Below are positions 23,464-25,712 of a stretch of 49,999 nucleotides of DNA, in pieces. The first letter of the stretch is position 1. Every line of letters starts with the position of its first letter. The notes below the pieces were generated by a model. It was not told where the DNA came from. It saw only the letters and a list, made by a program, of their open reading frames with translations, and did not search any database. A program made the translations under genes and the position numbers. This DNA is from an uncultured Pelagibacteraceae bacterium. GTDB lineage: Bacteria > Pseudomonadota > Alphaproteobacteria > Pelagibacterales > Pelagibacteraceae. The DNA lies in the NCBI GenBank assembly GCA_902604545.1, contig CACKZG010000003.1, positions 1 through 49,999 of the forward strand. Reading direction: 5' to 3'.

Positions 23464-24072
23464 ATGAAAAAAATTTTAGGGATCGTGGTTCTGGGTTTGT
23501 TGTTTAGTATAAAGGTATATTCAGCAAGTATTACAGAGGAGTTGAGTAAATTAAACGATTTGTATAAATCAGGTGCTCTTACAGAGGAGGAATTTTCTAA
23601 GGCCAAATCAATTTTACTAAATGAGTCTGGAGAAAAAATTATTATAGATGCAGAGTCGATAAAAGCTTTAATTAATGAGTCAATTGCTGAGGGTGAGGAA
23701 ATTTTAAAATCAAATAACGATAATTCAGAAGATAATAAAAATTTAAATAATTCAGTTCTTACACATAGTGAAGAGGACGCTCTTAAGGCACAAATATTCG
23801 GGTGTTGGAGCATTCCATTAGGATTACCGTATAATGAAAATTTATTAGTGAGAATAAAATTAGAATTAAAACCAGATGGAACTATCTCAAAAATAGAAAT
23901 TTTAGATCACGATAGAATGAATCAACCAGGTCAAGGTTTCTATAAAGTATTAGTTGAAAGCGCTCTAAGAGCAATTAAATTGTGTGAACCATTAAAAGTT
24001 CCTGCTGGTGATTATGAAAGATGGAAAGAATTATATTTAAATTTTGACGCAAGAGAAATGTTAGGTGGATAA
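23464..24072 (+). CDS. Secreted protein with SHOCT-like motif and TolA C-terminal-like domain
   Basis: Signal peptide; LSKLNDLYKSGALTEEEFSKAKSILL (SHOCT-like); GCWSIPLGLPYNENLLVRIKLELKPDGTISKIEI ... ALRAIKLCEPLKVPAGDYERWKELYLNFDAREML (TolA_C-like). Confidence 0.65.
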   Translation: MKKILGIVVLGLLFSIKVYSASITEELSKLNDLYKSGALTEEEFSKAKSILLNESGEKIIIDAESIKALINESIAEGEEILKSNNDNSEDNKNLNNSVLTHSEEDALKAQIFGCWSIPLGLPYNENLLVRIKLELKPDGTISKIEILDHDRMNQPGQGFYKVLVESALRAIKLCEPLKVPAGDYERWKELYLNFDAREMLGG

Positions 24073-24079
24073 ATAGATC

Positions 24080-24097
24080 ACTTGATTGGTCTACAAA
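24080..24097. repeat. 18-mer acttgattggtctacaaa, copy 1
   Basis: Exact copy at 25530-25547; both lie ~105 bp from a tRNA-Thr 3' end. Confidence 0.85.
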
Positions 24098-24100
24098 TCC

Positions 24101-24120
24101 GTCCACACTCTGACCACACT
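24101..24120. repeat. 11-bp-spaced motif pair GTCCACACT/GACCACACT (putative arm-type site)
   Basis: gtccacact 24101, gaccacact 24112; 83 bp from the tRNA fragment's TGG. Confidence 0.55.
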
Positions 24121-24148
24121 TAATTTATAAAGTAGTTAAACCTTATCT

Positions 24149-24230
24149 TTACAAAAATAATAAGTGTTGGTTTTATTGAGTGATGGTGCCCCCGCACGGA
24201 TTCGAACCGCGGACCTATTGATTACAAATC
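24149..24230 (-). repeat. tRNA-Thr remnant 1 (3' half plus 3' flank)
   Basis: ttacaaaaataataagtgttggttttattgagtgatggtgcccccgcacggattcgaaccgcggacctattgattacaaatc; tRNA portion 24184-24230 identical to the full gene from CCA to the anticodon. Confidence 0.93.
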
Positions 24231-24291
24231 TAATATCGCTGATCAAATAAATATGCTTTAGCAATATTTATAAACAATCATCAATAATCTC

Positions 24292-24310
24292 GACACACGT
24301 TTGACACAGT
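24292..24310. repeat. Cassette B left motif pair (GACACA at 24292 and 24303, 11-bp spacing)
   Basis: cgacacacgtttgacacagt, 62 bp from the tRNA remnant. Confidence 0.55.
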
Positions 24311-24324
24311 GTTATATTTTTACA

Positions 24325-24726
24325 ATGAGAAAAGGTTTTGGGTTTTTAATTATATGTTTGATGTTATCAAATTGTGCACCATCAGAAAAATCAATTAGTG
24401 AAACTCGTATTAAATACAGTAGACAGTCACCTTATGAACTATGTATGAATTATTTGAGTATGCCAGATTGGAATCAATGGCAACCTTATCGAGCAGAAGC
24501 AATTCAGAAAAGAGGAATAGATTGCTCACCCTGGTATGAAGAAGGGTATGCATTGAAACAAAAAAAGAGTGATGAGTTATTTGAGTCTGGAAAAAAAGCT
24601 TTTGACTCAACTATAGATGCAGCATATGGAGTTACTCCTGAATCCCAAAAAGGAAAGAAGTTGGTTTGCACAACACAAAGAATTGGAACTAGCGGTATGG
24701 CAAAAACAACTTGTAGAGAAAAATAA
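24325..24726 (+). CDS. Predicted lipoprotein, cassette B cargo
   Basis: MRKGFGFLIICLMLSNCAPSEKS = signal peptide plus lipobox LSNC. Start at 24325; the listed ORF begins at TTG 24301. Confidence 0.7.
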   Translation: MRKGFGFLIICLMLSNCAPSEKSISETRIKYSRQSPYELCMNYLSMPDWNQWQPYRAEAIQKRGIDCSPWYEEGYALKQKKSDELFESGKKAFDSTIDAAYGVTPESQKGKKLVCTTQRIGTSGMAKTTCREK

Positions 24727-24729
24727 TCA

Positions 24730-24748
24730 CGACACACTCACAACACAA
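24730..24748. repeat. Cassette B right motif pair (CGACACA/CAACACA, 11-bp spacing)
   Basis: cgacacactcacaacacaa; 84 bp from the tRNA remnant 2 TGG. Confidence 0.5.
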
Positions 24749-24778
24749 TAAACTTTAAAATTTAACCAAAATTTTATT

Positions 24779-24860
24779 TTGCAAAAATAATAAACGCTGA
24801 TTTTATTGAGTGATGGTGCCCCCGCACGGATTCGAACCGCGGACCTATTGATTACAAATC
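24779..24860 (-). repeat. tRNA-Thr remnant 2 (3' half plus 3' flank)
   Basis: Same 82-bp unit as remnant 1 with a few substitutions in the flank; tRNA part 24814-24860. Confidence 0.93.
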
Positions 24861-24919
24861 ATCTATAAAACTTCATATTATCGTTTACTTGCAATAATAA
24901 TTTCAAAGAATTTTAAGTT

Positions 24920-24938
24920 TGGTAACACTATGGTAGCA
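24920..24938. repeat. Cassette C left motif pair TGGTAACActaTGGTAGCA
   Basis: 11-bp spacing (24920, 24931), 60 bp from tRNA remnant 2. Confidence 0.6.
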
Positions 24939-24954
24939 ATGGTATATTTTTTTT

Positions 24955-25518
24955 ATGAAAAACAATTCAATGGTAATAATTGGGTGTATTGTGTTGGCAA
25001 TTATTATTTGGTCAATTCCGCTTTATAAATTACCCTTTGAAATGCCAATGATGCTTTTTGCATCAATAAAAGTATTTAGTGTTCTAATCCTCATAATAGT
25101 TGGATTGATGTATTTTCTTAATTCGTTAAATATTAAAGATGAGAAAAAAAAGGTAAAAGCATCCTCAAAATTAAAAAATAATAAAACCAATAAAACATCC
25201 TCAAATTTTATAGAAATAGTTTGGAATGGAAAAGAAACAATGTCCAAAACATTTTGGTTATATTGTATTCTGATAACTGGAATTGTAAGTCTAATTACAG
25301 GTATGCTTTCACCTCTAATTGGAAATTATTTATTTATAGTTCCAATGGTAGTTATTTTTTGGTCAAATATTGGATTATGGAATAGCAGTTCTAATTATAA
25401 AGCCAAACAATTAAATAAAAAAAAATCATATGGATGGGCAACAGCTGCAAAATTTTATGTGGTATTGAGTTTTATATACACATTGAGTCAGGCTGGTTTT
25501 ATTATTAGAGATTATTAA
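24955..25518 (+). CDS. Multi-pass membrane protein of unknown function, cassette C cargo
   Basis: 187 aa with several hydrophobic segments; WNGKETMSKTFWLYCILITG core. Confidence 0.75.
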   Translation: MKNNSMVIIGCIVLAIIIWSIPLYKLPFEMPMMLFASIKVFSVLILIIVGLMYFLNSLNIKDEKKKVKASSKLKNNKTNKTSSNFIEIVWNGKETMSKTFWLYCILITGIVSLITGMLSPLIGNYLFIVPMVVIFWSNIGLWNSSSNYKAKQLNKKKSYGWATAAKFYVVLSFIYTLSQAGFIIRDY

Positions 25519-25529
25519 GTTTAATGACT

Positions 25530-25547
25530 ACTTGATTGGTCTACAAA
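25530..25547. repeat. 18-mer acttgattggtctacaaa, copy 2
   Basis: Exact copy of 24080-24097. Confidence 0.85.
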
Positions 25548-25549
25548 AG

Positions 25550-25568
25550 TGGTAGCACTATGGTAACA
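25550..25568. repeat. Cassette C right motif pair TGGTAGCActaTGGTAACA
   Basis: 11-bp spacing (25550, 25561); 87 bp from the TGG (CCA) of tRNA-Thr. Confidence 0.6.
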
Positions 25569-25636
25569 CTTATTGCTACCAATTTATAAAATTTTTAATT
25601 TTGCAAAAATAGATAACGTTGATTTTACTAAGGAAG

Positions 25637-25712
25637 TGGTGCCCCCGCACGGATTCGAACCGCGGACCTATTGATTACAAATCAATTGCTCTACCAGCTG
25701 AGCTACAAGGGC
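25637..25712 (-). tRNA. tRNA-Thr(TGT), CCA encoded
   Basis: Minus strand GCCCTTGTAGCTCAGCTGGTAGAGCAATTGATTTGTAATCAATAGGTCCGCGGTTCGAATCCGTGCGGGGGCACCA folds as a tRNA; anticodon TGT. Confidence 0.97.

Follow-up and report, generated by a model that had tools for sequence, protein, structure and literature searches.

Small gene cassettes arranged in tandem at the tRNA-Thr gene of Pelagibacteraceae (SAR11) genomes carry, near both ends, pairs of short motifs repeated at a spacing of 11 bp, and these pairs are real, not chance. The reading that we favour, with a probability of about 0.84 judged from sequence comparison, is that the pairs are arm-type sites of lambda-type integrases, and that the cassettes are integrase-less elements moved by helper integrases that share a single core site. 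In lambda, L5 and Tn916, attP contains a core together with arm-type sites. SAR11 bacteria are among the most abundant in the sea and have streamlined genomes, in which, to our knowledge, few mobile elements have been recognised.

The tRNA-Thr locus and its cassettes

In the window, that is, the whole stretch of 49,999 nucleotides that was analysed, the 3′ half of tRNA-Thr is present at three places with identical sequence: in the intact gene and in two remnants, which delimit two cassettes, B and C, each with one gene and no integrase (Table 1). This half, which extends to the anticodon loop and is near-identical at the cassette boundaries, is a putative core site of the lambda type. Cassette C is presumably the most recent insertion, and the 3′ half now contained in the intact gene (25638–25683) was presumably brought in by the newest cassette. 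Segment A, to the left of remnant 1, is probably an older cassette whose left end has gone; a search to the left of it found no older tRNA remnant. The cargo proteins of B and C gave no family match above the cut-off.

Table 1. Features of the tRNA-Thr locus, in window coordinates
Feature	Position	Strand	Description	Basis
Gene of segment A	23464..24072	+	202 aa, SHOCT domain	Pfam SHOCT 3.4e-7
Segment A, right arm set	24090..24119	+	weak TCTACA (24090), GTCCACACT (24101), GACCACACT (24112)	
tRNA-Thr 3′-half remnant 1	24185..24230	-	from the acceptor end through the anticodon loop; delimits cassette B on the left	exact repeat
Cassette B	24231..24814	+	one gene, integrase-less	between remnants 1 and 2
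Cassette B, promoter-like sequence in left arms	24290..24318	+	TCGACA -17- TATATT, extended -10 TGTTATATT at 24310	
Cassette B, left arm pair	24291..24309	+	CGACACACGTT-TGACACAG	
Cargo gene of B	24325..24726	+	133 aa, N-terminus lipoprotein-like	by eye
Cassette B, right arm pair	24729..24748	+	CGACACACTCA-CAACACAAT	
tRNA-Thr 3′-half remnant 2	24815..24860	-	boundary between cassettes B and C	exact repeat
Cassette C	24861..25637	+	one gene, integrase-less	between remnant 2 and intact tRNA
Cassette C, promoter-like sequence in left arms	24919..24948	+	TTGGTA -18- TATATT, extended -10 TGGTATATT at 24940	
Cassette C, left arm pair	24920..24938	+	TGGTAACACTA-TGGTAGCA	
Cargo gene of C	24955..25518	+	187 aa, membrane protein	by eye
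Cassette C, right arm set	25540..25581	+	weak TCTACA (25540), TGGTAGCA (25550), TGGTAACA (25561), inverted copy TTGCTACC at about 25573	
Intact tRNA-Thr(TGT) gene	25637..25712	-	putative current attB	ARAGORN

Five 11-bp pairs, that is, ten motif copies, had been proposed in a sequence-only reading of this DNA at 24101/24112, 24292/24303, 24730/24741, 24920/24931 and 25550/25561, and all ten are present there. The distances given for them also hold: measured from the tRNA-Thr fragment, the left pairs start at 60–62 bp and the right pairs at about 86 bp. Under a regional Markov model, the probability of a pair with at least 7 of 8 matching bases in the position window is ~0.007 per left end and ~0.016 per right end, and each of the five ends in the window has such a pair.

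The right arms of segment A are of the ACCACA type, which is also present at the right ends of other cassettes, and a weak third copy, TCTACA, accompanies the pair both here and at the right end of cassette C. The arrangement at the latter end is repeated in L043.0, L055.0, L170.0 and L194.1. At the left end of B, spacer and motif are nearly equal to those of L110 (TGACACACGTATGACACA), a pair located upstream of a Pelagibacteraceae-family integrase at tRNA-Met. A conserved box, CGACTACTTGATT, is found ahead of the right arm set in most small cassettes (ATGACTACTTGATT in cassette C, 25523–25536), and a similar one, TTTTTTGACTCTTGTTT, occupies the matching place in two integrase-bearing elements, L133 and L005.

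Arm pairs across the genus

A search of 399 genomes of the genus for the tRNA-Thr fragment gave a match in 287, of which ~103 contained two to five copies. A discovery set of 40 loci with 57 cassettes and a hold-out set of 60 further array loci with 69 cassettes were assembled, 126 cassettes in total from about 100 related SAR11 genomes; the arrays reach up to five units in tandem. In the discovery set, 37/57 left ends had a lag-11 pair (shuffle mean 3.6), as did 52/57 right ends (shuffle mean 4.8). The hold-out set, which takes in one integrase-bearing element (L133), yielded 46/69 on the left and 64/69 on the right, with dinucleotide-shuffle means of 4.6 and 6.8. Shuffled AT-rich DNA, which might have been expected to yield equally good pairs, therefore falls far below the hold-out counts. 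Other lags gave at most 8 pairs on the left and 11 on the right in the hold-out set, save for lag 22, which corresponds to triple copies, and a lag-11 pair was seen in 6/125 interior control windows. The positions anticipated for the repeats, about +60 and −85, were recovered at about +60 and at −86 or beyond in most cassettes: almost all small cassettes have the left pair between +58 and +63, and three copies plus an inverted copy are common at right ends.

The geometry had been described as constant, which is true of the small cassettes but not of a second class of tRNA-Thr elements, of 3.4–9.9 kb (L037.0, L040.0, L045.0, L048.0, L053.0, L054.0, L066.0, L069.0 and relatives in the hold-out set). 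Their arms, in another style (TTCACTACA, AAGACTACA, TTCACTTCA), are found at +76 to +79 and at about −137. Among the second-class elements searched, only L037.0 has an integrase, of about 450 aa, and one member matches Arm-DNA-bind_3. In L050.0, also at tRNA-Thr, the left end of an integrase element is decayed; it has TACACA/ACCACA arms and the sequence AGGAGG, and the ACCACA arm type may have come from it. The control tRNA-Asn was rejected as a second site of cassette arrays; it is duplicated in 1/119 genomes, where the cause is an integrase element, not cassettes.

Agreement between left and right arms

The motifs had also been said to agree within a cassette, and this stands as a strong rule. 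In 62 nonredundant small cassettes, the concordance between left and right motifs is 0.917, compared with 0.764 ± 0.014 after permutation and 0.815 in the highest of 5000 permutations. The rule has exceptions, such as the discordant cassettes L041.0, L042.0, L166.0 and L068.0, which look like chimeras.

Several cassettes combine nearly the same first gene with different arms. The first ORF of L150.0 (GACAACA at both ends) is 99.7% identical to that of L173.0 (GGCACA at both ends), those of L059.0 (CGACACA), L065.0 (GACAACA) and L181.0 (ATACACA) are 95–98% identical, and those of L176.0 and L190.0 are 99% identical. In these same-cargo pairs, the DNA identity sets in around the −10 element, immediately internal to the left arms, and tapers off past the first gene; the right ends and the downstream genes differ. 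As the same first ORF is found with different arms at both ends, the arms change jointly while the first cargo gene stays.

Integrases with matching arms

A PF00589 search of 41 array genomes found no integrase in the small cassettes; only a 7.7-kb element in G039 has one. Intact tRNA-Thr integrases were located in just two host genomes (L107, in G830, and L108) and one virus contig (L005), and all of these elements have, next to the integrase gene, arms that match those of some integrase-less cassettes, as had been anticipated for integrating elements. The virus contig, from IMG/VR, contains a tRNA-Thr attP core flanked on either side by TCCGCA arms, with an integrase gene that begins immediately after the left pair; its right arms and cassette L044.4 have CCGCAATCTGTCCGCA in common, a 16-nt match. 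Relatives of its integrase are found at tRNA-Thr in Pelagibacteraceae genomes with GACAACA (L107) and GCAACA (L108) as the left pair. The L107 element, 6.9 kb long and bounded by tRNA-Thr fragments on both sides (L133:2349-9302), resides in a genome of the window's genus, and its right arms, TTTTGACAACAATCTGACAACACTAATTGTTGTCAG, match cassette L188.0 over 27 nt, the shuffled maximum being 13. At another tRNA, Asn by its anticodon region, the L106 integrase has GGTCGCA as left pair, and the G252 integrase element at tRNA-Asn has left and right arms that agree, also GGTCGCA.

Three arm types, GACAACA, GCAACA and TCCGCA, thereby have a cognate integrase at tRNA-Thr by sequence, whereas no intact tRNA-Thr integrase was found for the TACACA, GTCACA, GGTARCA, GGCACA, CGACACA, TAACACA and ACCACA types. 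The idea of one core used with several arm specificities is thus sustained by three types, but not by the types of cassettes B and C themselves, for which no matching intact tRNA-Thr integrase was found. In addition to the integrase, a primase is encoded on L133 and both a primase/helicase and a small terminase on L005, which makes the helpers look like phage satellites. A blastn search of the tRNA fragment against a collection of isolated phages returned only tRNA-like matches. Of the 31 IMG/VR stretches that contain the tRNA-Thr 21-mer, the majority appear to be tRNA genes belonging to other phages, L005 being the only one that is an attP with an integrase, and a search for close relatives of its integrase among viral contigs retrieved only L005 itself.

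An AlphaFold model of the integrase (mean pLDDT 85.8) has an N-terminus composed of three strands and a helix, and the best PDB match obtained with Foldseek is full-length lambda integrase on a Holliday junction (1z1g, E 1e-11). In 23 of 43 integrases of this family from phage contigs with upstream sequence, a perfect 7-base pair at lag 11 is present within 85 bp upstream of the gene, other lags giving at most 5; some integrases (L116, L119, L127, L264, L266, L276) use 12 bp, not 11.

A correlation between arm motif and integrase had been predicted, and the motif does covary with the N-terminal domain. The integrases of L107 and L108 are 96% identical over the sequenced part of L108 that was compared, with differences mostly in the first 40 residues, and their arms differ. 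Among 40 nonredundant integrases, an acidic residue three positions past the aromatic residue of strand 2 (residue 14 of L107) is accompanied by CG in both arm copies in 8/8 cases, against 3/32 of the others (Fisher p 2e-6), a count that includes related sequences, though acidity arises several times. A tree that leaves out the first 50 residues shows about five changes of the acidic trait, and CG arms are present with all of the acidic integrases. The residue was picked after the alignments had been seen, and the acidic/CG code is therefore a hypothesis with support rather than an independent test.

A promoter-like sequence within the left arms

Behind the left pair, at a fixed offset (±1 bp), 103/106 small cassettes have an extended −10 element (TGnTA), which is found in 11/106 control windows. 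A −35-like hexamer lies inside the first arm copy, 17–18 bp upstream of the −10, which is usually followed after about 6 nt by the start codon, as for leaderless mRNA; in the cargo genes of both B and C the distance is 6 nt. The left arm pair appears to be embedded in a sigma70-like promoter and the cargo gene to be leaderless, a point absent from the sequence-only reading. Since the left pair would double as a promoter, part of its conservation may be transcriptional. A comparable overlap is known from the KplE1 prophage: there the promoter of intS overlaps arm sites of attL, and the IntS protein represses its own gene (PMC2951348). A helper integrase is predicted to repress the cargo.

The regularity of this arrangement, in offset, hexamer and start codon, is what would be seen if the pairs were mainly regulatory, that is, operator or promoter repeats of the cargo gene with no role in recombination. 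We consider this very unlikely, because the pairs and triples of the right ends are located at the opposite end of the cassette, close to the following tRNA, and show no promoter pattern by eye, the integrase elements are flanked by the same pairs, and the motifs switch jointly at both ends with the cargo unchanged. A promoter role as the sole explanation of the left pair is ruled out by the right ends and the integrase elements, and dual use, as in KplE1, is likely.

Cargo and decayed relatives

The type IV pilin N-terminal (N-methylation) motif is found in 25/105 ORFs (104 cassette ORFs and the gene of segment A). Other cargo matches include restriction endonucleases, Mom, TPR and candidate defence families. 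Among the 25 most frequent of the 58 Pfam families matched by cassette ORFs, none is for replication or packaging. Some cassettes are multi-gene (L044.1, L044.2, L049.0, L060.0, L060.1), with sizes and first-ORF homology that suggest pilin-like operons.

The cassettes could also be immobile fossils of larger islands or prophages that have lost the integrase, with the arms as relics, a reading that fits the rarity of integrases in genomes, the degenerate state of some older remnants and the case of L050.0, where the left end of an integrase element borders decayed content. It seems to us just as improbable as the purely regulatory one. The units are compact, mostly 0.6–3 kb, with the cargo starting where the integrase gene of the helper starts; the arms of both ends are still matched after cargo swaps; and L044.0 and L073.0, which are nearly identical cassettes, have different neighbours.

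Less credible still is that a host tyrosine recombinase without an arm-binding domain moves the cassettes while the arms bind another protein. Most array genomes do encode an Xer/integrase-like tyrosine recombinase of 307–325 aa in which no arm domain was detected (for example G000:C2:58215-59168, the same as L278:716-1669), and the genome of the window (69% complete) has no other PF00589 match. However, this protein can be aligned with Xer-type recombinases from roughly residue 20 onwards, is not retrieved by the model of the arm-reading family, and leaves the match between arm motifs and element-encoded integrases unexplained; with no arm domain seen, it was rejected as the cassette mover. 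The gene at G000:C2:58215-59168 adjoins a glycosyltransferase-like gene. Finally, chance repeats in AT-rich DNA deserve practically no credence: a single 6/8 match at lag 11 is not unusual (p ~0.04–0.11 per end), but the shuffles, the lag profile, the interior controls and the hold-out counts rule out this origin.

Proposed mechanism and relation to known systems

According to the arm-site reading, the two ends of a cassette, once together, would form an attP with the right arm set (two to three copies, about −86 to −113), the core (anticodon stem-loop and 3′ half of tRNA-Thr) and the left arm pair (about +60), in that order. Another element with the same arm specificity would supply the integrase in trans, its small N-terminal domain binding the arms and its remaining domains the core. 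The circular cassette would then be inserted into the intact tRNA-Thr gene; the tRNA would be restored, with the previous 3′ half left behind as a remnant, and arrays would in this way grow beside the intact gene. As integrases with a common core would read different arm motifs, the motif would be an address. We infer that cassettes are also excised and pass between cells. A more far-reaching and tentative version, to which we would give somewhat less than even odds, is a market of addressed cassettes with one to a few genes each, in which both end modules are swapped together, allowing the cargo to change its helper, the arm motif obeys a readable protein-DNA code in the N-terminal sheet of the integrase, and the helper, by way of the cargo promoter that the left arms constitute, silences or releases the cargo that it moves.

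The cassettes resemble a lambda-type attP in having a tRNA core with tandem arm sites on both sides, and the modelled helper integrase resembles lambda Int in its predicted full-length fold, including the N-terminal sheet domain. They differ from it in that the SAR11 att sites bound single cargo genes without an integrase and that one core is common to many arm specificities. CIMEs and the integrase-less ssrA islands of Dehalococcoides are thought to be moved by the recombinase of another element (PMC3146451), and the cassettes are similar to them in lacking recombination genes, in being bounded by att sites and in their tandem accretion at one site; L133 and L108, which have an integrase and occupy the tRNA-Thr site as well, are candidates for the autonomous partner. 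Unlike CIMEs, the SAR11 cassettes are mostly 0.6–3 kb long, with one to a few genes and complete arm sites at both ends, their arm types match particular integrases, and arms are swapped independently of cargo.

As in integron cassettes and CALINs (PMC11389934), small gene units form arrays and the integrase presumably acts in trans. Here, in contrast, the core is half a tRNA, no IntI was found in the units by the PF00589 search, no attC is expected, and every cassette has its own promoter-like sequence. Small cassettes between repeated tRNA ends are also described for the additive flexible genomic islands of other streamlined marine bacteria, the Actinomarinales (PMC7771536) and Methylopumilus (PMC10872708); the available portions of these two accounts report no enzyme, recognition or arm sites, whereas arms and candidate integrases are identified for the SAR11 cassettes. 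Integration at tRNA genes is shared with PICI, PICMI and tycheposons, and the helpers L133 (integrase and primase) and L005 look like such satellites, from which the small cassettes differ in having no integrase of their own (PF00589 search).

Cassettes without an integration enzyme but with paired tags at their ends suggest an address system, in which small genes ride on the enzymes of others. The arm motifs would allow the integrase specificity of a cassette to be assigned from sequence alone, and would predict the element that mobilises it and permit a test of the recognition code of lambda-type arm sites. Since the cargo includes pilin-like proteins, restriction enzymes and candidate defence genes, phage-resistance genes may spread through the ocean by way of these cassettes.
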